A stretch of 38,158 nt of DNA from a virus, in IMG/VR virus record IMGVR_UViG_3300037540_000245, positions 1-38,158 of that record. One strand, 5' to 3'. The notes below the pieces were generated by a model, which searched no databases, was not told where the DNA came from, and was given only the letters and a program-made list of their open reading frames with translations. This document shows, one piece after another, positions 2,588 to 37,257 of the stretch (within the stretch, counting starts at the first letter, position 1; each line of letters opens with the position of its first letter). Both the position numbers and the translations under genes were made by a program.

Positions 2588-2616
2588 ATTATATCTTGTA
2601 CAAGATTTAAAGTCAA
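2588..2616 (-). promoter_or_regulatory. Sigma-70 promoter with palindromic operator in its spacer
   Basis: TTGACT (2616-2611), 17 bases, then TATAAT (2593-2588) on the minus strand. The spacer holds ATCTTGTACAAGAT (2593-2606), a perfect 14-bp palindrome also found in the promoter at 3950-3978. A repressor bound there would occlude RNA polymerase. It would serve the genes at 2554-1746. Confidence 0.8.
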
Positions 2617-2626
2617 GATTTTTCGT

Positions 2627-2878
2627 TCATTTTTTCTGAAAATATTCCAGAAAAAATTCTTCATCCATCCCATGAATGTCTAACTTTTCATATGAAGAAA
2701 AAGGATTATCTATATCAAGTTCATCTTCCACATAATACCAATCCCCACCTTCTTCCTCAGTTCCTTCTTCGATGATCATTCTATACTCTTGACCTTTGTA
2801 GCAGAAATCATCTCCATCATCCATCGTACCATCTTTAATTGCTATGCATATTCCTTCATATTTTTTTTCTTCAGACAT
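2627..2878 (-). CDS. Small acidic hypothetical protein
   Basis: 83 residues from the ATG at 2878, which follows AGAAAGGA; the in-frame TTG at 2908 is not needed. Very rich in Asp/Glu, with aromatic residues scattered through it (DGDDFCYKGQEYRM, GGDWYYVEDEL, EEFFLEYF). Second gene of the leftward sigma-54 unit. Acidity and size are compatible with a nucleic-acid-mimic or host-enzyme inhibitor, but nothing in the sequence proves this. Confidence 0.65.
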   Translation of the reverse strand: MSEEKKYEGICIAIKDGTMDDGDDFCYKGQEYRMIIEEGTEEEGGDWYYVEDELDIDNPFSSYEKLDIHGMDEEFFLEYFQKK

Positions 2879-2911
2879 TTGATTTTCCTTTCTAAAAGTT
2901 TTTGGCAATCA

Positions 2912-3193
2912 TCAACCATCCCACAGCATATCAATACCTTCTTTGGTAATATTAACAAGAGATTCTTCATCAGCATCATAATCATCAATATGAATTAGAC
3001 CTTTTTTAACAAGAGAACTAAGAACACCTTTAACCTGATTAACAGTTAATCCTGAATCATCAGCAAGTTGATCAGTAAACACCCAAGTAGCACTTTCTTC
3101 AGTAGTTCTTGGAAGACTTCCATTAAGCTGATTCATCTCATCTGTTCCAATAAGATTTAAAACTGATTTTTCATTTTCGGTCATGTTTTTCAT
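2912..3193 (-). CDS. Small winged-helix-like protein
   Basis: 93 residues from the ATG at 3193, which has AAAGGAAA upstream; the upstream in-frame ATG at 3226 would lie at the predicted transcript start. Residues around 44-68 (GLTVNQVKGVLSSLVKKGLI) look like a recognition helix followed by a wing (HIDDYDADEESLVNITKEG), as in MarR/PadR-type winged helices. First gene of the leftward sigma-54 transcript, so it could be a regulator of this region. The fold call is by eye. Confidence 0.65.
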   Translation of the reverse strand: MKNMTENEKSVLNLIGTDEMNQLNGSLPRTTEESATWVFTDQLADDSGLTVNQVKGVLSSLVKKGLIHIDDYDADEESLVNITKEGIDMLWDG

Positions 3194-3238
3194 TTTGATT
3201 TCCTTTATTTTGTCATTTGTTGTCATGCCATACTATAT

Positions 3239-3255
3239 AGCAAGTCTTATGCCAA
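3239..3255 (-). promoter_or_regulatory. Sigma-54 (-24/-12) promoter, leftward
   Basis: On the minus strand: TTGGCAT, five bases, TTGCT. The -24 GG (3253-3252) and -12 GC (3241-3240) are separated by exactly 10 bases, as in the sigma-54 consensus. TATATAGTATGGCA follows and is shared with the other two sites. Predicted start near 3229. Confidence 0.8.
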
Positions 3256-3327
3256 TGGTATGAATTTTTTAAATTGAACAATTTCAATGAGTTATGAATT
3301 TGACCATATTTGAGATTGCCAGAATTT

Positions 3328-3362
3328 TGACGTAAATTGTCAATCCCTGACAATCTTTGTCA
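3328..3362. promoter_or_regulatory. Double dyad: putative activator (UAS) site shared by two sigma-54 promoters
   Basis: TGAC-N7-GTCA, five bases, TGAC-N7-GTCA: two 15-bp dyads with centres 20 bp apart. It is about 116 bp from the leftward start and about 130 bp from the rightward start, the usual range for sigma-54 enhancer-binding proteins. The 20 bases at 3323-3342 recur exactly at 27233-27252, upstream of the third sigma-54 promoter. Confidence 0.7.
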
Positions 3363-3448
3363 GTTTAACGGCATATTCACGAATACAAACAAAACCATTT
3401 ATTGATTTAAACTGTTGATATTGCTGAATTTAGGCAAAATATGGCTTT

Positions 3449-3465
3449 TTGGCATAACATTTGCT
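3449..3465 (+). promoter_or_regulatory. Sigma-54 (-24/-12) promoter, rightward
   Basis: TTGGCAT, five bases, TTGCT, with GG at 3451-3452 and GC at 3463-3464, 10 bases apart. Predicted start near 3476, about 27 bases before the ATG at 3503. TATATATTGTGGCA follows, as at the other two sites. Confidence 0.8.
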
Positions 3466-3502
3466 ATATATTGTGGCAAGAAAACAACAAAAGGAGTCAA
3501 TC

Positions 3503-3703
3503 ATGAATTTTGAAAGTGGAAAAATAGTTGTCGGAAAGGATTTACATCCTATATATACCATCTGGAACCCCAAAACCGTTTCCAAATATGTCAAAAAACA
3601 TAAAAAATCTTCAAGACGTTCTTATAAACAGTACTTAAAAACAGGGGATATCAGGCAATTCAATAAATCTCAAAGAATGATTACCAGAAGGGATTTTGAT
3701 TAA
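3503..3703 (+). CDS. Small basic hypothetical protein
   Basis: 66 residues from the ATG at 3503, which has AAAGGAG 7 bases upstream; the longer frame from a TTG at 3461 would start upstream of the sigma-54 transcript start. The C-terminal half is strongly basic (KKHKKSSRRSYKQYLKTG), suggesting nucleic-acid contact. No family recognised. First gene of the rightward sigma-54 unit. Confidence 0.6.
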   Translation: MNFESGKIVVGKDLHPIYTIWNPKTVSKYVKKHKKSSRRSYKQYLKTGDIRQFNKSQRMITRRDFD

Positions 3704-3704
3704 A

Positions 3705-3953
3705 ATGAATTTCATAAAATTACATATTGCCCATGAAGATTTGGATATGTTTTTTGGCCCAATCGAACCCAATGATACCTTCATTATAATAGAGGATCAT
3801 TGGATTATGGCTCATATAATTCATAAAGCAGGAATATTCCCTTCTATCTCTCAAGCAAAAAAGAATGGATGGAATAAACCTATACCTAATGGATTCACTA
3901 TGTTAACAGTCGGAAAGAAAGCCAGAAAAACAGAATTATTTATTTTTGCTTGA
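3705..3953 (+). CDS. Hypothetical protein with GIFPSxSQAKKNGW motif
   Basis: 82 residues from the ATG at 3705, one base after the stop of the previous gene; an in-frame TTG at 3696 overlaps that gene. The stretch GIFPSISQAKKNGWNKPI followed by GFTMLTVGKK is the kind of motif seen in small phage and mobile-element hypotheticals, but I cannot name the family. Its TGA stop (3951-3953) lies inside the -35 box of the next promoter, so the two units are tightly packed. Confidence 0.6.
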   Translation: MNFIKLHIAHEDLDMFFGPIEPNDTFIIIEDHWIMAHIIHKAGIFPSISQAKKNGWNKPIPNGFTMLTVGKKARKTELFIFA

Positions 3954-3978
3954 CACCATATCTTGTACAAGATATGAT
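3950..3978 (+). promoter_or_regulatory. Sigma-70 promoter with palindromic operator in its spacer
   Basis: TTGACA (3950-3955), a 17-base spacer, TATGAT (3973-3978). The spacer and -10 edge form the perfect 18-bp palindrome ATATCTTGTACAAGATAT (3958-3975). The start is expected near 3985, 18 bases before the ATG at 4003. The same operator sits in the leftward promoter at 2588-2616, implying one repressor for both. Confidence 0.85.
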
Positions 3979-4002
3979 TAAGGCATAAAGGAGATAGATT
4001 TT

Positions 4003-4221
4003 ATGCAATTTTCAATACAAATTATAGGCTTTTTCTTAGTTGTTTTGTTAGGTTGCTCTTACCTCATGTTTTGGTTTGGTCAAAAAACAGGAGTAACTGA
4101 AGGGAGAAGACAAGTTTTGGAAGAAGATATGAAAAGAACTGATCAAAAAATAAAATATACCAATGAAAATTTAATGATTCTCAATTTGTATGATACTCTA
4201 TCTATTAAACAAGGAGAGTAA
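4003..4221 (+). CDS. Small single-pass membrane protein
   Basis: 72 residues. Residues about 5-26 are a continuous hydrophobic segment (IQIIGFFLVVLLGC then SYLMFWF), followed by a charged, probably helical tail rich in Glu, Lys and Gln. LLGC resembles a lipobox, but the segment stays hydrophobic after the Cys and has no basic N-terminus, so a membrane anchor is more likely than a lipoprotein. AAAGGAG precedes the ATG. First gene of the rightward operator-controlled operon. Function unknown; host-membrane modification is possible. Confidence 0.65.
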   Translation: MQFSIQIIGFFLVVLLGCSYLMFWFGQKTGVTEGRRQVLEEDMKRTDQKIKYTNENLMILNLYDTLSIKQGE

Positions 4222-4222
4222 A

Positions 4223-5179
4223 ATGAGTTTTTTCACAAAAATAGAGACTCGTAGAATCAAATTAGCAATGGAAAGGGCAGGTCATGACTTTACAGTTAAA
4301 AAAGTACCTTTGTATATCAGAAAAAACATGAGAGAGAATATAGAAGGGGGAGATATTCTTGATCATGTAGCAATTGTCAATTCTGAAACAGGTCAATATC
4401 TTGGAACTGTAGGTAAAGGTTGGGAACCTGTTCAACCTAAAATCCTTTATGAACTTGCTAAAGAACTTATTGATGCTACGGGTGCTATTATTAATGGTGC
4501 TATCAATATGTTTGGTGGGTCTGTAATCGGTCTATCTTTTAGACTTGCTACAAAAGAATATATAGAAAATGATCCTACTGAATTGAATTTTATTATGCTT
4601 ACTGCTTTTAATGGTAGGCATGGTATATCCGGTCATGCAGTAACCAATAGAATAGTTTGTATGAATCAATGTAATACATCCAATAATGTTTATAATCTCA
4701 AACATACTAAATTTGTTGGAGGTAGGATAAATGTAGCTAAAAGAATGATGAGATATTATAATGATGAAATTAGAACTTTTGATGATAAAATGAAAAAGCT
4801 TATTCATAAAAGAATGAATATAGAAGAAACTGAAACATGGTTTCGAAGTCTTTTCCCTTTCCCTAAATCTCCTAAAGCAGAAAAGAATTTAGATGAACAA
4901 GTCCTTATATTTCTGCAATGCTTAAATGATGGTCAAGGAAGCAATCTTCAGGGAGTAAGGGGAACTTATTATGGTGCTTTTCAGGCATTAACTGAATATA
5001 TCAATCATTATAGACGAATTAATATTCATAAGATTGAAGGTCAAAAAAGAGAAGCTGATGAAGTTAGATTTCAGTCAATTCACTTTGGAACAAATAATGA
5101 CCTTGCTCAAAAGGGGTTAACTAAACTTACTCAAGACATGAAGTTTGAATTTTCGGAAAATGACTTTTTACTTGACTAA
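4223..5179 (+). CDS. DUF932 (phage/plasmid-like) protein
   Basis: 318 residues from the ATG at 4223, with GGAGAG 4 bases upstream, directly after the previous stop. Family marks visible are YLGTVGKGWEPVQ near the N-terminus, a GHAVTNRIVCMNQCN block in the middle (RxVCxN), and GVRGTYYGAFQALTEYINH near the C-terminus (GTxxGxxxAxTEYxxH). DUF932 proteins are common on plasmids and phages and expand in mobile elements; their biochemical role is not established. Position in an operator-controlled operon fits early or middle expression. Confidence 0.85.
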   Translation: MSFFTKIETRRIKLAMERAGHDFTVKKVPLYIRKNMRENIEGGDILDHVAIVNSETGQYLGTVGKGWEPVQPKILYELAKELIDATGAIINGAINMFGGSVIGLSFRLATKEYIENDPTELNFIMLTAFNGRHGISGHAVTNRIVCMNQCNTSNNVYNLKHTKFVGGRINVAKRMMRYYNDEIRTFDDKMKKLIHKRMNIEETETWFRSLFPFPKSPKAEKNLDEQVLIFLQCLNDGQGSNLQGVRGTYYGAFQALTEYINHYRRINIHKIEGQKREADEVRFQSIHFGTNNDLAQKGLTKLTQDMKFEFSENDFLLD

Positions 5180-5194
5180 AAAAAGGAAAAGGAA

Positions 5195-5761
5195 ATGCAT
5201 TCGAATAACTATGAGTGGTTTATCACTCAAACTGTTGAATCTATGTTACCCTGTTTTCATGATAAGAATATCTGTCTTACAATGAAAATTAAAATGGATT
5301 GGAATTTTTATCCTGAAGATAATGATGTTCCAGCAGGTAGAAATCGGGATGATTTTACCAAAACTTTCAGAAAAACTGTTCTGCTTGTATTCCATAGACC
5401 TACAAATTATACAAAGGTGCTGTATAGGGATATAACAAATGTGCTGCATTTCTTTATTGATAGAAAACAAATGGAAATGAAGCAAATGTCTGATCATGAT
5501 TCATGTTGGAGAAGTGATGGAATGAAATGGGTTTTCAAATCCTTCATGGAAGCATGGGAGTACTTTGATCAATTTAAAATTGAAGGTAGGAAGATTGAAC
5601 CTATGTTCCATTATGATATTTTTCATGGTTCTCCTGCCTATTACCATCTTGAAAAACTTGAGATTGAAGATAGAAGTGAAAGATGGACTTCTGATTATAT
5701 CGTAAAGATAGGAAAACAAATACCTGTCAGTGAAATTAGCCAATATGTGAAAGGGGAGTAG
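5195..5761 (+). CDS. Hypothetical protein
   Basis: 188 residues, ATG preceded by AAGGAAAAGGAA. Rich in aromatic residues and histidine with mixed alpha/beta character; no membrane segment and no recognisable catalytic motif. It lies between the DUF932 gene and the exported FN3 gene in one operon, 15 bases after the former and 1 base before the latter. No family recognised. Confidence 0.6.
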   Translation: MHSNNYEWFITQTVESMLPCFHDKNICLTMKIKMDWNFYPEDNDVPAGRNRDDFTKTFRKTVLLVFHRPTNYTKVLYRDITNVLHFFIDRKQMEMKQMSDHDSCWRSDGMKWVFKSFMEAWEYFDQFKIEGRKIEPMFHYDIFHGSPAYYHLEKLEIEDRSERWTSDYIVKIGKQIPVSEISQYVKGE

Positions 5762-12547: not shown

Positions 12548-13594
12548 CTAAAAATAAAATTCAATATTAGTTACTTCCCAACCTGCTATGAAATCACGTA
12601 AATCTATAGTGCCAATGTCCAATCCATTACTAAAATCTAAAGTAATTTCATCACCACTAACGTAACCAAGATCATTGGCAATAATATTATCTGAAGTATC
12701 TCTGATATAGTATCTCATATTAACTATTGAATATGTTATTCTCATCTTGGTTGGTCGAAATCCTGTTGCCCAACTACCAATTGGACGTAGAAAGACTGTC
12801 CAATCTCCACCTGGTTGATCATTGTCTCTATCATCTGACTCCCATTTTGATACATCCCAGTGTCCAAAATCATTATCAGGTTCATCAGGTTCCCAATTAG
12901 TATTATCAAAGATCGACTGCCAAGTAGGTGAAGTTGATGAACTTGAACTTGATACAGAACTTGAACTACTACTCAAACTAGAACTAGAACTAGATAATGA
13001 ACTGCTTGAAGATGAACTTGTAGAAGATGAAGATGAACTTGAGCTATATCCAAATATCGGATTATTCGTCCATCCTGTTTCTCTTATAAGAAAATAATCA
13101 TAATTAAAATTGACAGTACTTTCTAAAGTGATATCCCCTTCTCTTTGAGAAAAAGAAACTTCTCCTAATGTTGCTGGCCAAATATCTATAAATCTTAATT
13201 CTAAAACAGCATTTGCATAATTATCAGTAACAACTAATGCAGCATCTACCCCATATCTATGATGTTTTTCTGCTATCTTATCGAAATTATTATTAATATA
13301 TGCCATCCATTCAAATAATAATTTCCAGTTTTCTAATCGTGAGTCTACTACAAAGCTAACTAACCAAGGATCAAACTCAATTGGTTCCATTGAATGCCTT
13401 GTTTTGTTTCCCTGCCACCTTAATTCTTCTGTAGCAATCGAAAGAGAAGGAATAACAGCAGAAAAGATATTCATCACAAATGGATTATTGGCACTAATGG
13501 ATGTTTGCTCCGGTATCAATGGAAAGATCAACTGATAATTCGTAGGAGTTGCCTTATCCATATTGCTTAAATTAGATGAGTTGCAAGTTATCAT
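12548..13594 (-). CDS. Tail-tube-like domain with poly-serine linker and extra C-terminal domain
   Basis: 348 residues in three parts. Residues 15-172 resemble a gp19-type tube protein: a strand with LRWQGNKT, a WKLLFEWMAYINNNFDKI helix, a strand of Leu/Phe ending IDIWPATLGEVSF and a last strand STVNFNYDYFLI. Residues 184-222 are almost pure serine with a few Thr, Leu and Val. Residues 223-348 are a separate, Asp/Trp-rich, beta-looking domain (DNTNWEPDEPDNDFGHWD) of unknown kind. I read it as a tube or baseplate paralogue displaying a domain on a flexible tether. AAGG lies upstream of the ATG; the stop of the upstream gene overlaps it. Confidence 0.7.
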   Translation of the reverse strand: MITCNSSNLSNMDKATPTNYQLIFPLIPEQTSISANNPFVMNIFSAVIPSLSIATEELRWQGNKTRHSMEPIEFDPWLVSFVVDSRLENWKLLFEWMAYINNNFDKIAEKHHRYGVDAALVVTDNYANAVLELRFIDIWPATLGEVSFSQREGDITLESTVNFNYDYFLIRETGWTNNPIFGYSSSSSSSSTSSSSSSSLSSSSSSLSSSSSSVSSSSSSTSPTWQSIFDNTNWEPDEPDNDFGHWDVSKWESDDRDNDQPGGDWTVFLRPIGSWATGFRPTKMRITYSIVNMRYYIRDTSDNIIANDLGYVSGDEITLDFSNGLDIGTIDLRDFIAGWEVTNIEFYF

Positions 13595-14034
13595 TATTTC
13601 TTACCTTCTTTTTTTGCCCAATCAACTATTTGTTTGTGAATGTCATACCATCCTGCTAAACTTTTTTCTAATTTTTGACCTGAATCAGTGAATTTTACTG
13701 TTGCATATTTATCATATTTACTATCTTTGAGATTAAAAGCACCTGTCAACCTAGTCTTTAATATACCAAAAGATTTTCTTATTTTTTGTATTTGATCATC
13801 TGTTATTCCTGCATCATCTAATTTCCATTTTGAACTAGCATCAAATGTTGCTCTACTTAACTTTGATAATCTATAGAATTCTTCTACTACTTTTTTCCAT
13901 TCTTTTTCTGTCATATTCCAAGGTTCTTTTTGGGATATTTTCTTTACTTCAAAATCACCTTTAGCTATTAGTTGAAATATTTTTATTTCATGTGGTTTAA
14001 ATTTTGCTTCAGTTAGATAATTTTTAAGTCTCAT
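13594..14034 (-). CDS. Leader-bearing protein, class 1 (MRLKNYLTE)
   Basis: 146 residues from the ATG at 14034, which has AAGGGG upstream; an in-frame ATG at 14073 lies inside the previous gene. The leader MRLKNYLTEA ends in L-T-E followed by Ala, the closest here to the T4 internal-protein leader MKTYQEFIAEA. The body is helical and basic with a helix-turn-helix-like stretch (KFKPHEIKIFQLIAKGDFEV) and no known domain. Inferred capsid-targeted protein. Confidence 0.65.
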   Translation of the reverse strand: MRLKNYLTEAKFKPHEIKIFQLIAKGDFEVKKISQKEPWNMTEKEWKKVVEEFYRLSKLSRATFDASSKWKLDDAGITDDQIQKIRKSFGILKTRLTGAFNLKDSKYDKYATVKFTDSGQKLEKSLAGWYDIHKQIVDWAKKEGKK

Positions 14035-14035
14035 T

Positions 14036-15091
14036 TTATATCCCCTTAGATTTTTTCCATGCCTCATATGCAAATTTTAATAGGTCTTCTGTTTTTTTAA
14101 TCTTTGCATCTCCCTTTACCTTCCTAGCTTCATTAGTAACTTTTTCAAATGTTTTGGCTGTTTCTTCTTCTTCAGGAAGTCCAAATGCAAAATGTCCTGA
14201 TGATACTCTTTTATGTTTTAAGTATACCCCATCAAATGACCACGAACCTTTTTTAAAAAAAGTTGTTCTCCATAGTTCCATTGTATAATCTTCACCAAGA
14301 GGGATAGAAACATGAGTTTGACCACCACCATATCCAAGTTTAGCACCAAGTTTTTTAGATAAGAAAGTTTCCATATCTCTTTTCTTAAATTGTCTGTTGC
14401 TCGTTTTCCCACTAAAGATATCTTTCATCTTTTTCTTAGGAAATAGCTGTTCAGGTTTTCTAAAAAATGAATGATCTCTTGTAAATTTCCAATCACTCTT
14501 TGACATTTTTTGTTTCTTATTTAAATGAAAACCATGAGCTTCAGTATATACGGTATAAGAAAGGTCTCCTGTACCTAATTCAGCTTTAGGCCACACTATA
14601 TCATGTAGTTGAGCATGAACTTTAAATGTAAAGACTGAACTTCTATCTTTAGTAAAAAATTCAACATCAAATCCTGCTGAAGATGGAGACCTATCATTTT
14701 CTCTTGGCATTGTTCTTATGATTTCATAATTAAATTTCAATCCACTTAACTCTTGAAAGAATTGTAAGAAAACATCAGGTTGAAAATTACTTAATAAGGC
14801 AGTCTTGATTTGTGCTCCTGCCATTTTATATTTTGCATTACTTGCTTCCCAATCGAATTTACCACTTCCCCCTGATTCTGATTCTTTACCTTTAGCTAAA
14901 ATATCATAGGCAACAGTGATATCTTTCATTTTATCTTCTGATCCACCTTGATCTGGATGGTTTTTCAAAGAAAGTCTTCTATATAATTTTTTTAACTCAT
15001 CTTTATCTTTAACACTATCAAGACCAAATACCTTTAGTGCATCACTATAGCTCATTTCAGCTAGGTATAGAAATTTTTTAAATTTGCTCAT
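14036..15091 (-). CDS. J-domain (DnaJ-like) protein with class 1 leader
   Basis: 351 residues. The leader MSKFKKFLYLAE ends in L-A-E. A J-domain follows at about 13-68: SYSDALKVFGLDS, then LKKLYRRLSLKNHPDQGGSE with the diagnostic HPD at 45-47, then ITVAYDIL. J-domains stimulate the ATPase of DnaK/Hsp70. Residues 75-351 have no recognised domain; they are beta-rich in the middle and contain EDYTMELWRTTFFKKG. AGGAGAAG precedes the ATG. If the leader targets it to the head, it could be delivered with the DNA and recruit host DnaK; this is inference. Confidence 0.8.
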   Translation of the reverse strand: MSKFKKFLYLAEMSYSDALKVFGLDSVKDKDELKKLYRRLSLKNHPDQGGSEDKMKDITVAYDILAKGKESESGGSGKFDWEASNAKYKMAGAQIKTALLSNFQPDVFLQFFQELSGLKFNYEIIRTMPRENDRSPSSAGFDVEFFTKDRSSVFTFKVHAQLHDIVWPKAELGTGDLSYTVYTEAHGFHLNKKQKMSKSDWKFTRDHSFFRKPEQLFPKKKMKDIFSGKTSNRQFKKRDMETFLSKKLGAKLGYGGGQTHVSIPLGEDYTMELWRTTFFKKGSWSFDGVYLKHKRVSSGHFAFGLPEEEETAKTFEKVTNEARKVKGDAKIKKTEDLLKFAYEAWKKSKGI

Positions 15092-15125
15092 TATCTTCTC
15101 CTAAAACTTAGGAACTTAAATTAGC

Positions 15126-15893
15126 TCATGGTTCAAATAGAGTATACTTGACTAGTAAATCTCCATCCTCAACTTTTCCTTTAAGTTCATATGTTAATCC
15201 ACCTGAAGCACCTGATGAGAATGTTGAAGTAGTATCTTTAATATAATTTGTAAATGATACTTTATCAGGAAAGTAACTCCCATAAATCTTTTCAATGAGA
15301 CCTATATCACTTGTAGGTTGAAAGAACCAAGTTTGCACTTCAAAATCTAAAGTATAATTGATTACCCTATACTCTAAATCTGCCATTTCATGACTAACTT
15401 CAGGAGTTGCACTTCTAAAAATAATTTTAACGTCAAATGCTGTATTAAGTTCTTCTATTGCAACTCTTACAAAAATATGTGGACAGAAAAATGGTAGTAT
15501 TTGCTCTAGTATCTGATCTACATCCACCATATGCAAAGACCAGATATTCATGGTAAATGTTAGATTGTATGGACAGGGATGGATGTATTTTGAAAAAGAC
15601 CCTGCTTCAAAATTACATTCAGAAGCAAATTCATAAAAGCTATTGACCTTTCTATCTGCTGCCCAATCAATAGAGCTAATATAAGCTGTTATCATTGGCA
15701 ATATTTCATCGTCTTTTCTTTCATTTAGCCAATAATAAACTTTTTCTTTAACAGAATGCTTAATAGGAACTTCAATGAGTCTATCTACTGTTTTACCATC
15801 TGCTGCATATCTGGCAATCTTGATATCATTGAATGCATCAAAAAACTGTACTATAGTTTTTCTGAAGACATTAAAGAAAAAATATTGTTTCAT
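15126..15893 (-). CDS. Tail sheath stabiliser / tail completion protein (gp15-like)
   Basis: 255 residues (T4 gp15 has 272). The N-terminal block FFFNVFRKTIVQFFDAFNDI followed by KIAR aligns with gp15 (FYNSSFRRY...LFSNIQIKR), and DQILEQILPFFCPHIFVRV aligns with its EQILPYFQPHF block. The later WFFQPTSDIGLIEKIY also matches in style. gp15 forms a hexameric ring at the head-proximal end of the tail and joins it to the neck. No leader motif is present, unlike its neighbours. Stop to the next gene is close, so it belongs to the same late operon. Confidence 0.85.
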   Translation of the reverse strand: MKQYFFFNVFRKTIVQFFDAFNDIKIARYAADGKTVDRLIEVPIKHSVKEKVYYWLNERKDDEILPMITAYISSIDWAADRKVNSFYEFASECNFEAGSFSKYIHPCPYNLTFTMNIWSLHMVDVDQILEQILPFFCPHIFVRVAIEELNTAFDVKIIFRSATPEVSHEMADLEYRVINYTLDFEVQTWFFQPTSDIGLIEKIYGSYFPDKVSFTNYIKDTTSTFSSGASGGLTYELKGKVEDGDLLVKYTLFEP

Positions 15894-16172
15894 TTATTTA
15901 CCTATATTGGTTTTAGTTTTTAGAAGTTCTGAAAATCCCCTATTTTTTTTCATGAACAACCAAGCATAATCTTTTTTTGCTTTATATACATTCATTGCTG
16001 CTGATTTAGAACTAACAAAATGTCTTACAGCATTAGTACTATTCTTGACAATTTTTTGAATTTTGCCCGTACCTGTATCATAGATAATCCAATCTGAATC
16101 TTTGACTTTTTTATAATCAATTGTTGGTGTACTTCCTTCACCTAAATATCTATCTATTAAGTCTAAGTCCAT
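15894..16172 (-). CDS. Leader-bearing small protein, class 2 (MDLIDRYLGE)
   Basis: 92 residues. MDLIDRYLGEG is the class 2 leader, ending L-G-E. The body is basic with aromatic patches (SDWIIYDTGTGKIQKIVKNS; DYAWLFMKKNRG) and no known domain. AAGGAG precedes the ATG. It abuts the gp15-like gene. Inferred head-targeted protein. Confidence 0.65.
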   Translation of the reverse strand: MDLDLIDRYLGEGSTPTIDYKKVKDSDWIIYDTGTGKIQKIVKNSTNAVRHFVSSKSAAMNVYKAKKDYAWLFMKKNRGFSELLKTKTNIGK

Positions 16173-16183
16173 TTTCTTACTCC

Positions 16184-16468
16184 TTATCCTTCATATTTCC
16201 CTGTTATTTTTTTGACTACTTTTGCTGCTGATGAATTCATATCAAGTTTTACTTTTTTCTTTTTGCCTTTGTATGATACAGTTATTTCGTTTTCAAATTT
16301 TCCAATTGGTTCTATACCAAGAATTTCAACACCTGCTTTTTTTAAAGCACTAGCTAAAACTGTTCCGAATGATCCCAATCTTTCTCCCCATTGGCCCGGC
16401 ATTCTTCCCATACTACCAATTGTTGCCAATATACTACTCTCACCTAAATATTTGTTTACTAAATCCAT
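16184..16468 (-). CDS. Leader-bearing small protein, class 2 (MDLVNKYLGE)
   Basis: 94 residues. Leader MDLVNKYLGES ends L-G-E. The mature part has a Gly/Met-rich stretch then EITVSYKGKKKKVKLDMNSS, a basic beta segment that could bind nucleic acid. AAGGGAG precedes the ATG. Inferred head-targeted protein; function unknown. Confidence 0.65.
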   Translation of the reverse strand: MDLVNKYLGESSILATIGSMGRMPGQWGERLGSFGTVLASALKKAGVEILGIEPIGKFENEITVSYKGKKKKVKLDMNSSAAKVVKKITGKYEG

Positions 16469-16479
16469 AATAATCTCCC

Positions 16480-16716
16480 TTATCCCATTTTATAAATATA
16501 CTTTCCTCTTTTCATACTCTCTTGTGCTTTACCTTTTCTTACCAATTCCATTAAATGAGCTTGAAGACCATGTTGGCTCATAGGAAAGCCAACAACTTTT
16601 TTGGCTATATCATCTATACTCATCCAATCACCATTTGATAAAGCTCTTGTTAGAGTACCAAAAACCTGTTTTTTTGTTAGTTCATTTACTCCTAAGTATT
16701 TTTCTATTAAGTCCAT
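16480..16716 (-). CDS. Internal in-frame start: class 2 leader protein nested in the metalloprotease gene
   Basis: 78 residues from the ATG at 16716, with AAAGGAGAG ending 4 bases upstream. The N-terminus MDLIEKYLGVNE is class 2, although the usual Glu after LG is Val. The body (GTLTRALSNGDWMSIDDIAK; HGLQAHLMELVRKGKAQESM) looks like a winged helix. No stop codon separates it from the protease upstream. Either two adjacent genes lost the intervening stop, or both a fusion and a short form are made by design. Confidence 0.6.
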   Translation of the reverse strand: MDLIEKYLGVNELTKKQVFGTLTRALSNGDWMSIDDIAKKVVGFPMSQHGLQAHLMELVRKGKAQESMKRGKYIYKMG

Positions 16717-18012
16717 TTTACTCTCCTTTATATTTGCTCCACCTGAACGAACTACCTCTTTAAAGAAGTCTCTTGTCCATTCACCTAATCTTCCTCTTGC
16801 AACAACCCATAATGCAAATGCTTCACAAAATGCTTCTTCTGTATTTTTCCTTGCATAATCAGTTATGAATTCAATATGAATACGTTCTCCTTCATAAGAC
16901 AATAATTCCTTTAATGATGTACTCCATGATATCGTTTGAACTAAATATTGATATACGGCTTTTGTATTTGGATCATTTTCATTCTTTTTTATTGAATCCA
17001 TCAATTTATTTCTTTCTGGTTTTTTTATTTCTGTATATTCATTTGGATCATCCCATTTTTTTTCAAATTTACCTTCTATATATTTTCTGAAAAAATCTTC
17101 AATATGATATTTTTCTATATGAACAAATTTTTTCCATATTGCTGAACTCCATGCATCCTGGGCATTTTTAGGCAATGTCCTTCTATAGAATCTATGCCCA
17201 ATTTCATGAACTAAAGTATGCAATGCTGTTTGCTTATCTGCCATACCCCATGCATATATAGCTAATGTATCTTCATGAGTGATATATTCTCCCCCTTTTT
17301 CACCTTGCCCCGGTCTTTCTGTTAATCGTAATTTGACAGTCAATCCTCTTAATGAGTCTTTAAATCCTGATTGTTTTATTGCTTTAACTGCTTTAGGTAA
17401 CGTATCAATAAACATTTTTAGCTTTTCTTTTGCCCAATCACCTGTATCTTTATCTTGTGTTATAAGTAGATTTATACCTGCAACATTTATTTGATCTCTA
17501 CTATCGGGAGTAACCAATTCAAATTGATATTTTATCAATTCTTCCATAGCATTAAAGGCATTTTTAAATGCTTTTTGATATACTATTATTTTATTTTTTC
17601 TTGTGTCTCCCTTATTATATCTTGGTCTGTCTAACAAATCAGGTCTTGGTGTGAATTTACCATCATTATAATCATCAGGAAATATGTTATTTATTGCCAT
17701 TTCTGCTTGCCAACCCTTTACTCTTGCTTCCTTTGAATAAATGGATTCTGTGTTATCTTCACCGGGTACAAATTTCTTTTTAGTAAACTGAGTGTACCAT
17801 CTTTCCCAATTTTCTCTGAATGTTCTGAATAGTTTCATACCTTCTTTGAATTTTTTAACAGCTTTTGGTGTGTTTTCAGCTTCTACAGATTTATATATTT
17901 TCGTCATTTTTCTTAAATCGGATTTCCACCCTTCTAATTCCTTTAGCCATTTGTCTTTATTTCTTTCACCTGTAAGGGATATCTTTTCATTTAAATATCT
18001 TTTAAGTTTCAT
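16480..18012 (-). CDS. HExxH zinc metalloprotease with class 1 leader, fused in frame to a leader-bearing small protein
   Basis: 510 residues. The leader MKLKRYLNE (L-N-E) is followed by a long basic helical region (10-165), then a metalloprotease domain with HEIGH at 269-273 and a later acidic helix NTEEAFCEAFALWVV at 390-404 that probably gives the third zinc ligand. The last 78 residues, from Met433, start with a second leader, MDLIEKYLG, and continue into a winged-helix-like region. A strong AAAGGAGAG lies just before the Met433 codon, so the tail can also be made alone. The substrate is unknown; if injected, host proteins are candidates. Confidence 0.8.
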   Translation of the reverse strand: MKLKRYLNEKISLTGERNKDKWLKELEGWKSDLRKMTKIYKSVEAENTPKAVKKFKEGMKLFRTFRENWERWYTQFTKKKFVPGEDNTESIYSKEARVKGWQAEMAINNIFPDDYNDGKFTPRPDLLDRPRYNKGDTRKNKIIVYQKAFKNAFNAMEELIKYQFELVTPDSRDQINVAGINLLITQDKDTGDWAKEKLKMFIDTLPKAVKAIKQSGFKDSLRGLTVKLRLTERPGQGEKGGEYITHEDTLAIYAWGMADKQTALHTLVHEIGHRFYRRTLPKNAQDAWSSAIWKKFVHIEKYHIEDFFRKYIEGKFEKKWDDPNEYTEIKKPERNKLMDSIKKNENDPNTKAVYQYLVQTISWSTSLKELLSYEGERIHIEFITDYARKNTEEAFCEAFALWVVARGRLGEWTRDFFKEVVRSGGANIKESKMDLIEKYLGVNELTKKQVFGTLTRALSNGDWMSIDDIAKKVVGFPMSQHGLQAHLMELVRKGKAQESMKRGKYIYKMG

Positions 18013-18022
18013 TTTTAGTTGC

Positions 18023-18871
18023 CTATAACTGATTTGGCTTTACAAAAGCTTTCATATTTTTACCTAATAGTTTTTCTCTTGCCATTCTCTTTAAAAGAGT
18101 TTTCTGCCATAAGTCTAATACATCTTTCCCATGCCTTTTAAGACTGCTTGCTATTGAATACAATGAGGTATAGGTATTAAATACGTCTAATAGAGTCATT
18201 TCATCCCATATGTCTTTATTAGCTCTTTTTAATTCCTTTATGCCATGTATTTGTCCATCTATTTCAAAGTAAGTCATATTCACGTCTTTTTTACCTAACT
18301 TAACTAGCTCTGTATTTGTTAATTCTGCTGCCAAGTCTAAGACATTTGATATATGCTTATTATGTAGGGAGTCTGATATCCAATGGGATAGCTCATGTGA
18401 TATTGATGATTTAGCTCTAGTAGATGATAACTCATTTGCAAATCTTACCAATTCTTTATCTTCAAGTGAACTTATATTTCCCTTCATCACTATGTCTAAA
18501 ACGTGTGGATTTATAGATATTTGAATTTCTCCCTTTTTTCCACTACCACCTGCTTGTCTTCCTATTATTACTGAAGGTCTATAGAAATTACCATCTATAT
18601 AGCTTCCCATATCTATTGTTACGGGATTTACATTGTGTGCCATTACTGCTTCAGGTGTTTTAAGAATAGAACTATCTGTATTGAAAATAGTTGTACTTCT
18701 GTCTTGTCTGAATATATTTCTTAGTTTTTTTTGCATTGTCTCAAAGTCATTTTCTTGGAAGATTTTAAATACTTTCTTAAATGCTTTGTTATATAGAAGA
18801 TCAACATCCTTTTTGATATTGAATGTCTTCTCTAATATTAAATGTTCCTGTAGATATTGTTTGAGTTTCAT
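18023..18871 (-). CDS. HExxH zinc metalloprotease with class 1 leader
   Basis: 282 residues. The leader MKLKQYLQE ends L-Q-E. A zinc-protease motif SISHELSHWISD sits at about 156-167, with HELSH at 159-163; FEIDGQIHGIKEL about 40 residues later may supply the third ligand. The region before it (GEIQISINPHVLDIV) supplies the edge strand usual in such proteases. It is not closely similar to the 510-residue protease upstream in the window, so the two look independent. The ATG overlaps the upstream stop (ATGA). Inferred to be head-packaged. Confidence 0.75.
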   Translation of the reverse strand: MKLKQYLQEHLILEKTFNIKKDVDLLYNKAFKKVFKIFQENDFETMQKKLRNIFRQDRSTTIFNTDSSILKTPEAVMAHNVNPVTIDMGSYIDGNFYRPSVIIGRQAGGSGKKGEIQISINPHVLDIVMKGNISSLEDKELVRFANELSSTRAKSSISHELSHWISDSLHNKHISNVLDLAAELTNTELVKLGKKDVNMTYFEIDGQIHGIKELKRANKDIWDEMTLLDVFNTYTSLYSIASSLKRHGKDVLDLWQKTLLKRMAREKLLGKNMKAFVKPNQL

Positions 18872-19056
18872 TTTTCCTCTTGTGGAATAATTCTGTACTT
18901 GAGTAAAGGTTTACCGTTTATCGTGATATCTCCTTTTGCATTTTTGCCGATATCTTTGACTTTAATCTTTTTGTTCTTAAATTTTCCACCTAGCACAATA
19001 TCTCCAACATTTATAGGTACTTTAATATCTTCTTTTAAGTAGTTTTTAAATTTCAT
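18868..19056 (-). CDS. Leader-bearing small beta protein, class 1 (MKFKNYLKE)
   Basis: 62 residues. Leader MKFKNYLKED ends L-K-E. The body VGDIVLGGKFKNKKIKVKDI and GDITINGKPLLKYRIIP is a small beta barrel of KOW/SH3 style, like short T4-type phage proteins that carry the same leader. It overlaps the metalloprotease start by 4 bases. Inferred head-targeted protein. Confidence 0.65.
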   Translation of the reverse strand: MKFKNYLKEDIKVPINVGDIVLGGKFKNKKIKVKDIGKNAKGDITINGKPLLKYRIIPQEEK

Positions 19057-19058
19057 AA

Positions 19059-19253
19059 TTAAAATCCTGACATTTTTTTAATAGCTTTTAAACTTATACC
19101 TGTATTAGTACTAAGAATATTTTTTAAGGCTGTTCTAAAAAGTGATTTATTATCTATTTTAGGACTAACTTGAAGAATCAATTCAATAGTAACCTCTTTC
19201 ATTTTTTCTGCAAAAATGTCTGTTTCACCTAAATATTTTTCTGTTAAATCCAT
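19059..19253 (-). CDS. Leader-bearing small protein, class 2 (MDLTEKYLGE)
   Basis: 64 residues. Leader MDLTEKYLGET ends L-G-E. The body is helical (FAEKMKEVTIELILQVSPKI; LFRTALKNILSTNTGISLKA) and unrecognised. A GAGA-rich site precedes the ATG, 11 bases after the gp14-like gene. Confidence 0.6.
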   Translation of the reverse strand: MDLTEKYLGETDIFAEKMKEVTIELILQVSPKIDNKSLFRTALKNILSTNTGISLKAIKKMSGF

Positions 19254-19264
19254 TTTTTTCTCTC

Positions 19265-19933
19265 CTAGTACCCATATATATTAGTGTCATAATCAGGCCC
19301 ATAGTCAAAGATATCATCACTTTCTTTATCTAATGGGTCATTATCACCAAATGCTGAAAGTGGTTCTGTTGTAGTATCCAAATCTGTCCGTCTGTTTACA
19401 TTACTTTGATCTGTAGGTAGTCTTGTACCTCTAAATATATTTCTTGCTGAATCAGACTCATCTGAAAATCTATAAGGTTTAAGCACTAATCCCCAAATCA
19501 TCTTTTTTAATTGGAAGATTTTTTCTTCTTCATGAATATCAGCTATCTCATATGATCTATTGTTCCAGATAGTGACTATAGCATCCCCAGGTTTAGGATG
19601 ATATCCTGCTGATACATCTCTTGTAAGTGTCCATTTAGGAATACTTGACCATGAGATAACTTCTTCAGAGTTTATACCAAATCCTGTTGTGAGAGTAGGT
19701 TCTTCAGTAGGTTCATATATAAGTTTTGTTTCATATGGCCCAAGATATCCTGTATGCATATTCTCTCCATACAGATAATCTTTTTTGCCTTGCTCACTTC
19801 TTATATAATAGTCAGTTACTATACCTGATATATCGGTGAACTCTACAATGATACTTTGAAAAAGATCATGTTCAACATTACCTTGTAGTTGATGCAAGTT
19901 CCATAAAGGCTTAGTAGTTTGTATATCTGTCAT
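19265..19933 (-). CDS. Neck protein (gp14-like)
   Basis: 222 residues (T4 gp14 has 256). The N-terminal part SIIVEFTDISGIVTDYYIRS recalls gp14's short strand, V-x-x-YY and basic residue, and GDAIVTIWNNRSYEIADIHE followed by IFQL matches gp14's GDLIYFPMDNSLFEINWVE block in order. The acidic C-terminus is variable. Its place between gp13-like and gp15-like genes agrees. gp14 forms the neck ring with gp13 that seals the filled head. Confidence 0.75.
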   Translation of the reverse strand: MTDIQTTKPLWNLHQLQGNVEHDLFQSIIVEFTDISGIVTDYYIRSEQGKKDYLYGENMHTGYLGPYETKLIYEPTEEPTLTTGFGINSEEVISWSSIPKWTLTRDVSAGYHPKPGDAIVTIWNNRSYEIADIHEEEKIFQLKKMIWGLVLKPYRFSDESDSARNIFRGTRLPTDQSNVNRRTDLDTTTEPLSAFGDNDPLDKESDDIFDYGPDYDTNIYGY

Positions 19934-20307
19934 TATCTACCTTCTATAAGTTTTGTTTGAGAATCCATAACCAATGTCATAGCTTCTTCTAATCTTTTTA
20001 CTCTTTTCTTCAAAGAAACAAATTCATTGGAACTATGTTTTTTTCCACTCATTCTTAACTCATGCATTTTCTTTTCCATTATTGAATCAAATTCACCATA
20101 CCCATCATCTTCAACAATGTTACTCCTACGATTGTTAATAGAATCATCATTTATAGGATCACCTAGAGGATTATCGTTTAATGCCCCTGTAGCTGTTGAT
20201 AAATCTGGTTCTGTAACCATTGAGGTATCTATTTCTTGGAAGGCTGTTCCATCTTGCAACATTTTTTCATACGCTGAAATCATTTTTCTGTTATCATCTC
20301 TTGACAT
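19933..20307 (-). CDS. Hypothetical coiled-coil protein of the neck region
   Basis: 124 residues. Polar N-terminal half (DPINDDSINNRRSNIVEDDG) and a C-terminal coiled coil (FVSLKKRVKRLEEAMTLVMD). AAGGAG precedes the ATG, and its stop overlaps the gp14-like start. No leader motif and no family I recognise. The position suggests a structural or assembly role. Confidence 0.6.
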   Translation of the reverse strand: MSRDDNRKMISAYEKMLQDGTAFQEIDTSMVTEPDLSTATGALNDNPLGDPINDDSINNRRSNIVEDDGYGEFDSIMEKKMHELRMSGKKHSSNEFVSLKKRVKRLEEAMTLVMDSQTKLIEGR

Positions 20308-20308
20308 T

Positions 20309-20686
20309 TTATTTCTCCTTCTCCATTTTTAATAATCTTGAATAGTAATCAGGTAATTCTGCTAAATGATCTAAAGCTATTCTTTTAGCAATGGCTTTAT
20401 TTTTGGTATGTTCCATTTCTACTTTTATACCAGTTTCAAGTTCTTTTTTATCGGCATCTTTTTCTGTGAATTTTTCTTTTTTAGCTTTACCAGTACCTAA
20501 GATAGCACCTAAAATAGCATAAATATGTTCTTCGAATCTATCAGGATCAAGACCCAATTTCTCTCCAAGTTTATGAATTTCATCATCAGGTGGTTTTGGA
20601 TTATCGGCAAAGAAATCCATTATGGTAGTAAAAATTTTATTTTCTTTTTCTGATCCTTCATTCATAAACTCTCTAAGTTTTCTCAT
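20309..20686 (-). CDS. DUF5661-like protein with class 1 leader
   Basis: 125 residues from the ATG at 20686, which overlaps the upstream stop (ATGA) and follows GGAG by 9 bases; an in-frame ATG at 20701 is less well placed. Leader MRKLREFMNEG ends M-N-E. The C-terminal KVEMEHTKNKAIAKRIALDH followed by LAELPDYYSRL is the pattern of DUF5661, a small phage-associated domain of unknown role. Inferred head-targeted. Confidence 0.7.
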   Translation of the reverse strand: MRKLREFMNEGSEKENKIFTTIMDFFADNPKPPDDEIHKLGEKLGLDPDRFEEHIYAILGAILGTGKAKKEKFTEKDADKKELETGIKVEMEHTKNKAIAKRIALDHLAELPDYYSRLLKMEKEK

Positions 20687-20916
20687 CCTCTTTTTCTCCA
20701 TTCTGAAGCTGTTCTTGCTATTATGTCTTTTCCTATTTTTACTGACACCATTGGAATTGAATATGTTTTGGTATCTATGCCTTCTATTTGTCCTTTTCCA
20801 AATCGTGGATGAGTAACAATATCTCCCGGTCTTATCGGTCTCCCATCCATATCTTTTGCTATTTCACCCGGTTGAATTATTCTTACTTCACCTAAATACT
20901 TCTCTACTAAATCCAT
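20683..20916 (-). CDS. CarD/tudor-like small protein with class 2 leader
   Basis: 77 residues. Leader MDLVEKYLGEV ends L-G-E. The body (RPGDIVTHPRFGKGQIEGID then VSVKIGKDI) has the G-D-x-V-x-H-x-x-F-G-x-G pattern of CarD-type and UvrD-C-terminal tudor folds, which bind RNA polymerase. If delivered with the genome it could contact host polymerase early. Function is inferred from the motif only. Confidence 0.65.
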   Translation of the reverse strand: MDLVEKYLGEVRIIQPGEIAKDMDGRPIRPGDIVTHPRFGKGQIEGIDTKTYSIPMVSVKIGKDIIARTASEWRKRG

Positions 20917-20917
20917 T

Positions 20918-21214
20918 TTATCTCCCCATATCCCCTATTATCTTTGATGAATCAGGTAGTTTATCTACATATTTTGTTAAGGCTAATCCTGCTGCTTTTG
21001 CATTTTTAGTTGCTTTCATTTCTTTTCCACCATGAACGGGTATCCATTTACCATCTCTATATAATATAGTAAGATCATATCCATGATATCTTCTCATATA
21101 CACAGCATCATATAATTGTGGTATATCTTTAGTTCTCTCATCTGCATAATCCCACCCCATTAAATATGGATGGTTTTGTTTTGCTTCTCCTAAATATTTC
21201 TCTACTAAATCCAT
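20918..21214 (-). CDS. Leader-bearing small protein, class 2 (MDLVEKYLGE)
   Basis: 98 residues from the ATG at 21214; GGGGG lies 5 bases upstream, and an in-frame ATG at 21226 overlaps the gp13-like gene. Leader MDLVEKYLGEA ends L-G-E then Ala. The body has aromatic, basic segments (YDAVYMRRYHGYDLTILYRD) and a helix of Lys/Ala, with no known domain. First small gene after gp13. Confidence 0.65.
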   Translation of the reverse strand: MDLVEKYLGEAKQNHPYLMGWDYADERTKDIPQLYDAVYMRRYHGYDLTILYRDGKWIPVHGGKEMKATKNAKAAGLALTKYVDKLPDSSKIIGDMGR

Positions 21215-21216
21215 TT

Positions 21217-22080
21217 TTACCCCCATATTATTCCATACCCTTCATGTGATTCTTCAAGTCTTAAAGTTTCATCCAGTCTCTCTTTCTCTGTTGTCCCTTC
21301 CTGTAGTAATGTATCCCCATCTAATCCTATTCCTATATTACCGATAGAAGTAAAATTGGCAAATTTACTTCTGATCCTACCTAGTACAAGTTTGCATTCA
21401 GCTAAAGCATAATCAAATATCCAATCAGAAGTATAAAAATGCTCATCTGAATCACCTCTTTTCCATGTAGATAATTTAGGATCACTTTCCATACCTGCAT
21501 AATGACTACCTTCAATCATATATGATCTGATGAGTATAAACCCAGGGGAGTCATAGGTAACATCTTGACCATTCTCATCTGGTAACAGTAAAGCATTTCC
21601 TGAAGGTGGTTGAGGATGTACTTCTAACTGATTGGTGTACTTATGATATTTGTAATTATATATGGAAGGAGTATATCTATCTAGTGTTTTTAAGAAGTCT
21701 AATGCAACATGATAACTGAGTATTGAATGTCCTTGTCCACCTGACCACATTACAGGATTGAAAACCCCTCTTGTATATAAAAAGTTTTCAATAGTAAATA
21801 AGGTATTGATACCATATTCTGATCCTCTATCATCATAATCAACAATATCCACAACACCTATAGGTAGATCATAAAAATTTTGACCTGCCAGAAGTAAAGT
21901 AGTAAAATAGGTTTCGACAATTGAATTTCCTGCTCCCCACTTTACCCACTTATATTTAGCATAGTCTATTGTATCATAAATTTGCTGTTGAGTTAGCTCA
22001 ACTTTTATTACGGGATATCCCAATCTTCTTTTTATCAGTTCTGCTAAATCAGACTTACTTTGTCTAATATCTAATGGCAT
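21217..22080 (-). CDS. Neck protein (gp13-like)
   Basis: 287 residues (T4 gp13 has 309). The N-terminal IKRRLGYPVIKVELTQQQIY followed by DTIDYAKYKW matches the gp13 start (LRRLG-PV-I-V---Q--D-ID-A). The C-terminal DWIFDYALAECKLVLGRIRS corresponds to its YA-A--K---G motif. It lies directly downstream of the terminase. Late promoter at 22110-22117. It works with gp14 to close the head after packaging. Confidence 0.8.
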   Translation of the reverse strand: MPLDIRQSKSDLAELIKRRLGYPVIKVELTQQQIYDTIDYAKYKWVKWGAGNSIVETYFTTLLLAGQNFYDLPIGVVDIVDYDDRGSEYGINTLFTIENFLYTRGVFNPVMWSGGQGHSILSYHVALDFLKTLDRYTPSIYNYKYHKYTNQLEVHPQPPSGNALLLPDENGQDVTYDSPGFILIRSYMIEGSHYAGMESDPKLSTWKRGDSDEHFYTSDWIFDYALAECKLVLGRIRSKFANFTSIGNIGIGLDGDTLLQEGTTEKERLDETLRLEESHEGYGIIWG

Positions 22081-24519: not shown

Positions 24520-24531
24520 TCTTGTACAAGA
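24520..24531. promoter_or_regulatory. Third copy of the TCTTGTACAAGA palindrome
   Basis: A perfect 12-bp palindrome lying between two convergent genes. It matches the operator cores at 2594-2605 and 3961-3972, but here no good -35/-10 pair flanks it at the usual spacing. It could be an isolated repressor site or a relic promoter. Confidence 0.5.
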
Positions 24532-26472: not shown

Positions 26473-27069
26473 TTAGAAACGAGCACATGAAGGACAACAA
26501 TCATCATCATTCTTCATAATCGGGATATACATTTTACGGCAACCCGTACACATTTTCTTGCTGGCATTATTAATATCAACATTCCAATGAGTGAAAAGGT
26601 CAGAGTAAAATTCATCTTCTTCAGCTTCATTTTCTTGCTCTGTCTGAAAAAAAATACTTTCAATCTGTTGACAAACCTCATCAATTCTATCTTTAACTTC
26701 TTCAAGTTTACAATCTTTAAAAAATATTTTCATTTCTCCTTTAAAGAAGTCTAAAACATCTGATTTATCATCAGTCCATGAAACTTCTTGCCAACCAACA
26801 CCACAACACAACCAAAGTTTATTTGTTTCCGTATCTTCAACCACATCACCAACAGAAGTTGAACGACTTTCCTTTATTAAGGTAACTCCCTCATTTTCCC
26901 ACCAAGAAAAATCTATGTGATTAGTCAATTGAAAAGTTTGACCAATTGAATCACAATCAATATTTGCAACATGATCATAAAGGTCTTTATGAGCAACATA
27001 AAATTCACAATTAAGAAAATGAAGTTGACTATTTAATTCCCATTTTTTGCTGTGATAAATTTTAAACAT
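26473..27069 (-). CDS. Hypothetical zinc-ribbon protein under sigma-54 control
   Basis: 198 residues. The N-terminal half has EFYVAHKDLYDHVANI and SRSTSVGDVVEDTETNKLWL, the RSTSVGDV motif found in hypothetical proteins of plasmids and phages. An acidic, helical middle follows. The C-terminus is a probable zinc ribbon: CTGC and, after 15 residues, CCPSC. AAAGGA precedes the ATG. It is the only gene between the sigma-54 promoter and the next promoter. Function unknown. Confidence 0.65.
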   Translation of the reverse strand: MFKIYHSKKWELNSQLHFLNCEFYVAHKDLYDHVANIDCDSIGQTFQLTNHIDFSWWENEGVTLIKESRSTSVGDVVEDTETNKLWLCCGVGWQEVSWTDDKSDVLDFFKGEMKIFFKDCKLEEVKDRIDEVCQQIESIFFQTEQENEAEEDEFYSDLFTHWNVDINNASKKMCTGCRKMYIPIMKNDDDCCPSCARF

Positions 27070-27104: not shown

Positions 27105-27121
27105 AGCAAGTCACATGCCAA
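27105..27121 (-). promoter_or_regulatory. Third sigma-54 (-24/-12) promoter
   Basis: Minus strand TTGGCAT, five bases, TTGCT, with GG (27119-27118) and GC (27107-27106) 10 bases apart, followed by TATATAGTATGGCA as at 3239-3255. Predicted start near 27095, about 26 bases before the ATG. Confidence 0.8.
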
Positions 27122-27232: not shown

Positions 27233-27261
27233 AATTTTGACGTAAATTGTCAGTAGGTGAC
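27233..27261. promoter_or_regulatory. Second copy of the putative sigma-54 activator site
   Basis: AATTTTGACGTAAATTGTCA (27233-27252) is identical to 3323-3342, and GTCA-N5-TGAC continues to 27261. It lies about 150 bp upstream of the third sigma-54 start, just beyond the SpoVR stop. The last half-site (GTCA) of the first copy is missing. Confidence 0.7.
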
Positions 27262-27273
27262 AATTTTGAGTAT

Positions 27274-36190: not shown

Positions 36191-36661
36191 TCAATATCTT
36201 TTCTTTAGATTCCCTGAACTAACTAAACTTTGCCCTATTAGTTCTCTAAATATATCATGGAGAAATGCTGTTCCATAATTCTTAATAAACATATTAGCAT
36301 CTTTATTCAACTTATACTTCTTTTTTATTGCATCTTCAGATTTCTTTATTCTAGGAATAATATCATTCATTACGATTTTATTTACATCAATTCTGATATC
36401 TTTTAAAATCTTTTCTTTTAATTCAGAATCATCTACAAAATCTTTAATGCCTTCCTTAACTATTTCAGAACGTATATCATTAGGTTTAGCCAAGTCATTT
36501 TTCAGAAATTTTTCTTCCATATCTTCCATTTCTTTTTTTGACATTGGCTTTTTATTAGCTTTTTTGCCTTTAACATACAAATCCCATTTTGATTCATCTA
36601 TTCCTATTCCAAGAATGCTTGTCTTATAAGCACCAAGAATCTTTTCATTTAATTCATCCAT
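36191..36661 (-). CDS. Leader-bearing protein, class 3 (MDELNEKILGAY)
   Basis: 156 residues. The first 18 (MDELNEKILGAYKTSILG) are nearly identical to those of the next gene upstream, and GIDES supplies an I-D-E cleavage motif at about 20-23. The body is basic and helical (DLYVKGKKANKKPMSKKEME) and unrelated to its neighbour's. AGGAG precedes the ATG. Sited next to the scaffold gene, it is a good candidate for a prohead-core or internal protein. Confidence 0.65.
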   Translation of the reverse strand: MDELNEKILGAYKTSILGIGIDESKWDLYVKGKKANKKPMSKKEMEDMEEKFLKNDLAKPNDIRSEIVKEGIKDFVDDSELKEKILKDIRIDVNKIVMNDIIPRIKKSEDAIKKKYKLNKDANMFIKNYGTAFLHDIFRELIGQSLVSSGNLKKRY

Positions 36662-36675
36662 GATTACTCCTATTT
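36606..36675 (-). repeat. 70-bp leader repeat, copy 1
   Basis: Matches 37188-37257 at 67 of 70 positions. It spans the ribosome site, start codon and leader codons, but the genes diverge beyond it. Confidence 0.85.
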
Positions 36676-36679
36676 CATA

Positions 36680-37243: not shown

Positions 37244-37257
37244 GATTACTCCTATTT
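37188..37257 (-). repeat. 70-bp leader repeat, copy 2
   Basis: Partner of 36606-36675 (67 of 70 identical). The near-identity at DNA level suggests recent exchange or duplication of the leader module alone. Confidence 0.85.

Follow-up and report, generated by a model that had tools for sequence, protein, structure and literature searches.

Candidate sigma-54 promoters with pilA-type enhancers in a T4-like phage point to probable control by the host PilS/PilR pilus circuit

A small set of genes in a T4-like phage appears to be driven by three sigma-54 promoters whose enhancers would be copies of the PilR box found at bacterial pilA genes, and we consider it probable, judging from the sequence comparisons below, that these genes are connected to the PilS/PilR-sigma-54 pilus circuit of the host and not to a generic nutrient sensor. 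The DNA analyzed, hereafter the window, is an IMG/VR virus record of 38,158 bases whose terminase matches that of the T4-like phage S-SM2 at 38%. We infer that host PilR, phosphorylated/activated by PilS, would bind the TGAC-N7-GTCA dyads, that the DNA would loop and that PilR would use its ATPase to open the sigma-54 RNA polymerase of the host at the -24/-12 elements. Two divergent promoters would be activated from the enhancer at 3328-3362, and an uncharacterised gene, called here gene A, from a second copy of it, while one or two genes outward from the divergent pair a second tier of sigma-70 promoters with a common palindromic operator would presumably answer to a phage-encoded regulator. 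Phages exploiting host transcription factors are already known, and in most descriptions phages rely on the host housekeeping sigma factor, on a sigma factor of their own or on their own polymerase. If the present reading is true, the phage gene set would require sigma-54 together with a two-component regulator in its activated form, and infection would therefore be tied to a state of cell signalling, that of the type IV pilus. For a phage, PilR would be an attractive regulator: pilA is a gene in heavy use, and the pilus, whose state is reported by PilS/PilR, often serves as a phage receptor.

An earlier note on this DNA had described positions 2588-3978 as a mirror-symmetric control region, and every element that it listed was found in its place when the window sequence was checked (Table 1). 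The motif TTGGCAY-N5-TTGCW containing GG-N10-GC has three exact sites in the window, the third of which, upstream of gene A, was absent from that note. The enhancer core of this third promoter is identical to that of the divergent pair, although the pair has two complete dyads and gene A one (27238-27252) plus a half site. Chance occurrence was estimated by dinucleotide shuffling of the window, repeated 300 times. The composite of a dyad, 50-130 bp and TTGGCAY-N5-TTGCW occurs 5 times in the window, against a mean and a maximum of 0 in the shuffles. On the other hand, TTGGCATN5TTGCT with up to two mismatches occurs 8 times against 5.0 expected by chance, and since this loose motif shows no excess, it is the three exact copies with their common enhancer that are significant. 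The dyads begin 88-132 bp upstream of TGGCA, within the usual activator distance of about 80-200 bp. The exact elements and the dyad spacing thus lend support to the earlier proposal of sigma-54-like promoters sharing an upstream activator site.

Table 1. Predicted control elements and associated genes in the window
Feature	Position	Strand	Remark
Outward sigma-70 promoter TTGACT-TTAAATCTTGTACAAGA-TATAAT	2588..2616 (2616->2588)	-	N17 spacer, palindrome TCTTGTACAAGA
Gene 2 of leftward sigma-54 unit, 83 aa	2627..2878	-	family: none matched
Gene 1 of leftward sigma-54 unit, 93 aa	2912..3193	-	weak winged-helix matches
Candidate sigma-54 promoter (-24/-12) TTGGCATAAGACTTGCT, leftward	3239..3255 (3255->3239)	-	GG-N10-GC
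PilR-box-like dyad TGACGTAAATTGTCA, left half of common enhancer	3328..3342	.	same arrangement at bacterial pilA
PilR-box-like dyad TGACAATCTTTGTCA, right	3348..3362	.	common enhancer; 20 bp from left dyad
Candidate sigma-54 promoter (-24/-12) TTGGCATAACATTTGCT, rightward	3449..3465	+	GG-N10-GC
Gene 1 of rightward sigma-54 unit, 66 aa	3503..3703	+	family: none matched
Gene 2 of rightward sigma-54 unit, 82 aa	3705..3953	+	conserved in relatives: L040 72%, L140 62%
Outward sigma-70 promoter TTGACA-CCATATCTTGTACAAGA-TATGAT	3950..3978	+	N17 spacer, palindrome TCTTGTACAAGA
Third exact TCTTGTACAAGA	24520..24531	.	between two convergent genes, outside any such promoter
Gene A, 198 aa, behind third promoter	26473..27069	-	TNHI..WWEN..RSTSVGD family, uncharacterised
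Third candidate sigma-54 promoter TTGGCATGTGACTTGCT	27105..27121 (27121->27105)	-	exact TTGGCAT-N5-TTGCT
Enhancer of third promoter, TTTTGACGTAAATTGTCA-N5-TGACAAT	27235..27264	.	full dyad and half site

The pattern TGACN7GTCA-N5/6-TGACN7GTCA-N75-105-TGGCN8TGC was scanned across the genomes of 84,980 species and gave 59 loci, where our own estimate of chance matches is below one. The resulting gap between bacterial box and promoter, about 75-110 bp, is a range censored by the search pattern. At 45 of the 59 loci a type IV pilin (GFTLIELMIVVAIIGILAAIAIP and near variants) lies downstream of the promoter or, in a Desulfobulbaceae locus (L188), divergent from it; in this locus the box stands between pilA and a gene pair for a histidine kinase and an NtrC-type response regulator. 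Activation of pilA by PilR together with RpoN has been reported (PMC6058289, PMC2725144, PMC10714779), and in Xylella the only activators are NtrC and PilR and the best-scoring RpoN promoter is that of pilA1 (PMC3224663). The dominance of pilins among the loci, taken with this published control of pilA, indicates that the TGAC-N7-GTCA box is most likely a PilR site. The suggestion of the earlier note that the phage reads nutrient or stress state was not borne out, the 45 pilin loci pointing instead to PilS/PilR.

The tandem box was also searched without the promoter requirement in 150 whole genomes, namely one Xanthomonas, one Desulfobulbaceae and 148 more of the family of the Xanthomonas genome. 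TGGC-N8-(T/C)GC was found 62-141 bp away, on one strand, in 11 of 11 cases, and the reversed promoter pattern had no match near these 11 boxes. The strict box is held by only 7 of the 149 genomes of the Xanthomonas family, which means that the boxes of most pilA promoters in this family must be degenerate. Of 16 cases, 9 had an IHF site between box and promoter where 6.3 were expected; three matches were exact, and no enrichment was clear overall. When a 36-base synthetic box was compared with the phage collection, the top match was an Acinetobacter pilA in mislabelled chromosomal DNA, with TGACAATTTTTGTCA and TTGGCATGGTTGCTGC upstream of the annotated pilin. The record labelled Acinetobacter phage MD-2021a (L253, CAKLQF020000004.1) carries genes for a type IV pilin and an O-antigen ligase; it seems to be mislabelled, as these are bacterial chromosomal genes.

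The non-pilin minority of boxes lies before a PEP-CTERM-like gene (L176), a PilZ-like gene (L159/L241) and others, and a related activator could therefore use the same box. We consider it improbable, although less so than the other alternatives treated below, that the phage elements are sigma-54 promoters under another NtrC-type activator with a near-identical box, such as PrsR, a PEP-CTERM regulator, or a further envelope/adhesin regulator belonging to the host; the boxes before the PEP-CTERM-like gene and before further non-pilin genes (L242, L243/L244, L246) would fit such an activator, whereas the large majority of promoter-associated boxes adjoin pilins and the single box of one Xanthomonas genome is at pilA. 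PEP-CTERM proteins were our first guess for the main target of the box, a candidate rejected when searches for the C-terminal motif were essentially empty and pilins dominated. In the Desulfobulbaceae genome a tandem box and a sigma-54 promoter lie upstream of the gene for the PilZ-like protein (L241, L159), which is possibly a further target of PilR.

Relatives of the phage were gathered through the terminase. Two sigma-54 promoters facing away from tandem dyads were found in three of them (L040, L140 and L133), in each of which homologues of the genes at 3705-5761 adjoin the divergent design; one of the two dyads of L040 has one mismatch. As the outer pair of sigma-70 promoter and operator also recurs in L040, the mirror layout proposed earlier holds as a unit. 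The genes downstream of the inner promoters vary among relatives. Three further relatives (L081, L091, L202) keep sigma-54-like sites and have no dyads. One of these carries five TGGCAY-N5-TTGCW sites, three plus and two minus, within about 420 bp (L202:6815-7236, contig G024 18814-19235) in an apparently non-coding stretch where TGAC dyads are absent, and these sites are possibly sigma-54 promoters under another activator. A scan of viral contigs with the plain sigma-54 pattern caught L027, L040, L041 and L051, and its matches are probably mostly chance. A DUF932 gene used as query against viral contigs gave no match, and no tRNA genes were found in the window.

The third promoter was compared among five close orthologues of gene A (window, L051, L207/L095, L072 and L136), and all five have a -24/-12 element and a box, those of L051 and L207 with one or two mismatches. 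Alignment of the five upstream regions showed conservation of TTGTCA-N5/6-TGACAA, of TTGGCAY..TGC and of a T-tract, whereas the intervening DNA has diverged. In farther homologues of gene A the promoter is mostly absent; three of them (L234-L236) have a -24/-12 element with degenerate dyads only. This joint conservation bears on whether the dyads could act chiefly as a sponge, by which replicating phage DNA would titrate PilR, host pilin would fall and other pilus-using phages would be excluded, with transcription secondary. The three to five dyads in a row in L130, L134, L141 and L061 are more than a promoter needs and would suit a sponge, but the dyads of the window and of its relatives are spaced from exact -24/-12 elements as in a promoter, are conserved together with them and have genes led by ribosome sites behind them, and we regard titration as the principal role as decidedly unlikely. 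Control of transcription through PilR remains our preferred reading.

Gene A matched no family at a convincing score in Pfam or PHROG, and a core model of good quality had a best match of E = 0.43 against the PDB. In the annotated phage collection gene A has distant relatives only, as has the terminase. The gene A family (TNxI..WWxN..RSTSVGD; L214-L237) also has members in virus contigs as long as 619 kb.

In both outward promoters of the second tier, the palindrome TCTTGTACAAGA sits directly upstream of the -10 element. The composite of TTGACN-N17-TATNAT with a palindrome in the spacer occurs twice in the window and in none of the 300 shuffles, and TCTTGTACAAGA itself occurs 3 times against 0.003 expected. 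In relatives the form of this tier is conserved and the operator sequence is changed: L040 has TTGACAACCTTTATCTTATATGAGATA on both sides, and the spacers of L081, L091 and L086 hold TCTTATATAAGA or TCTAATATAAGA. The promoter spacer is a typical place for repressor sites, and the outer promoters are therefore likely to be governed by a phage-encoded switch protein. The product of 2912-3193 gave winged-helix matches, which are weak. In contig G019 (L205:8218-9501, minus strand), sigma-70 promoters carrying the operator TCTTATATGAGA come after the unit of sigma-54 promoter and gene A, and the two-tier order thus recurs at the gene A locus.

In the virion region of the window (13594-21226 and 36191-37533) many open reading frames have near-identical short N-termini (MDLVEKYLGE, MDLIDRYLGE-like, MKLKRYLNE, MKLKQYLQE, MKFKNYLKE and MDELNEKILGAY), which look like a common targeting tag, as for the internal head proteins of T4. 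One of the tagged frames, at 16480-18012, contains an HExxH-like stretch, HTLVHEIGHRF.

Among viral sequences, box and promoter were found together in 20 stretches with a gap of 80-110 bp and in 23 with a gap of 49-79 bp, a few contigs being in both lists. About 40 viral contigs have the design, against none for a control with a dyad gap of N8. Sorted by protein sharing, the carriers form about twenty groups without a detected common protein, with GC from 0.28 to 0.65, although some groups may merge, as the comparison covered only parts of contigs. Portal or terminase genes confirm several carriers as phages (L142, L129, L124, L125, L130, L060 and L061). The box-plus-promoter was absent from Tiera, PaMx41 and Mwe-JY13, isolate phages that are distant relatives of other carriers, and from EBPR podovirus 3. 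A contig binned as Acidimicrobiia (L165, L186; JASJBC010000049.1) has several box-plus-sigma-54 promoters and no pilins, and is possibly a mis-binned phage contig.

The same distribution bears on the idea that the elements are a phage-specific promoter type, for example T4-like middle or late, that merely resembles -24/-12. T4-like phages do own middle and late promoters, and most clade members have a TATATA run after the -12 element; nevertheless the composite is found without that run in unrelated phages (GC 0.58-0.65) as well as at bacterial pilA promoters, and the enhancer would be left unexplained, which makes this idea very improbable. With sigma-54 promoters retained as the preferred reading, the source of the activator was considered. 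Sigma54_activat (PF00158) had no match above cut-off in 42 viral records, all fragments, and hence the activator is probably supplied by the host. No pilin was found behind the window promoters or their viral copies; the window promoters are therefore, as far as their elements tell, pilA-like in form and yet not pilA promoters.

The presence of the design in about twenty viral groups without a detected common protein suggests convergent selection. We advance more tentatively, as a possibility on the doubtful side, that many unrelated phages acquired PilR/sigma-54 promoters convergently because PilS/PilR reports pilus state. If so, the PilS/PilR signal would change when a phage infects through the pilus or close to it, the phage would time or gate its first genes by that signal, and some of the products would feed back on pili or superinfection. 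The design may also be of use in metagenomics, as a signature in the sequence by which phages of pilus-bearing hosts can be recognised.

The earlier remark that sigma-54 promoters are rarely reported in phages agrees with our literature search, in which, with many subscription papers beyond reach, no report of PilR- or sigma-54-dependent phage promoters was found. The nearest known system is the bacterial pilA promoter under PilS/PilR and RpoN (Pseudomonas, Xylella, Geobacter), which like the window has tandem TGAC-N7-GTCA boxes 20-21 bp apart, placed about 75-110 bp (the searched range) upstream of TTGGCAY-N5-TGC. Unlike bacterial pilA, the phage copies precede phage genes, their divergent promoters often share an enhancer, and an activator was not detected. 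Phage phi1422 is likewise tied to sigma-54, but by a gene for a sigma-54-type regulator (PMC3391216), whereas the window has promoters and enhancers with no activator gene detected. The PilS/PilR circuit is also touched by Pseudomonas phage LSL4, whose PIT4 binds histidine kinases, including PilS (PMC10714779); PIT4, however, is a protein, whereas in the window the likeness to the circuit lies in pilA-like cis elements in the phage DNA.
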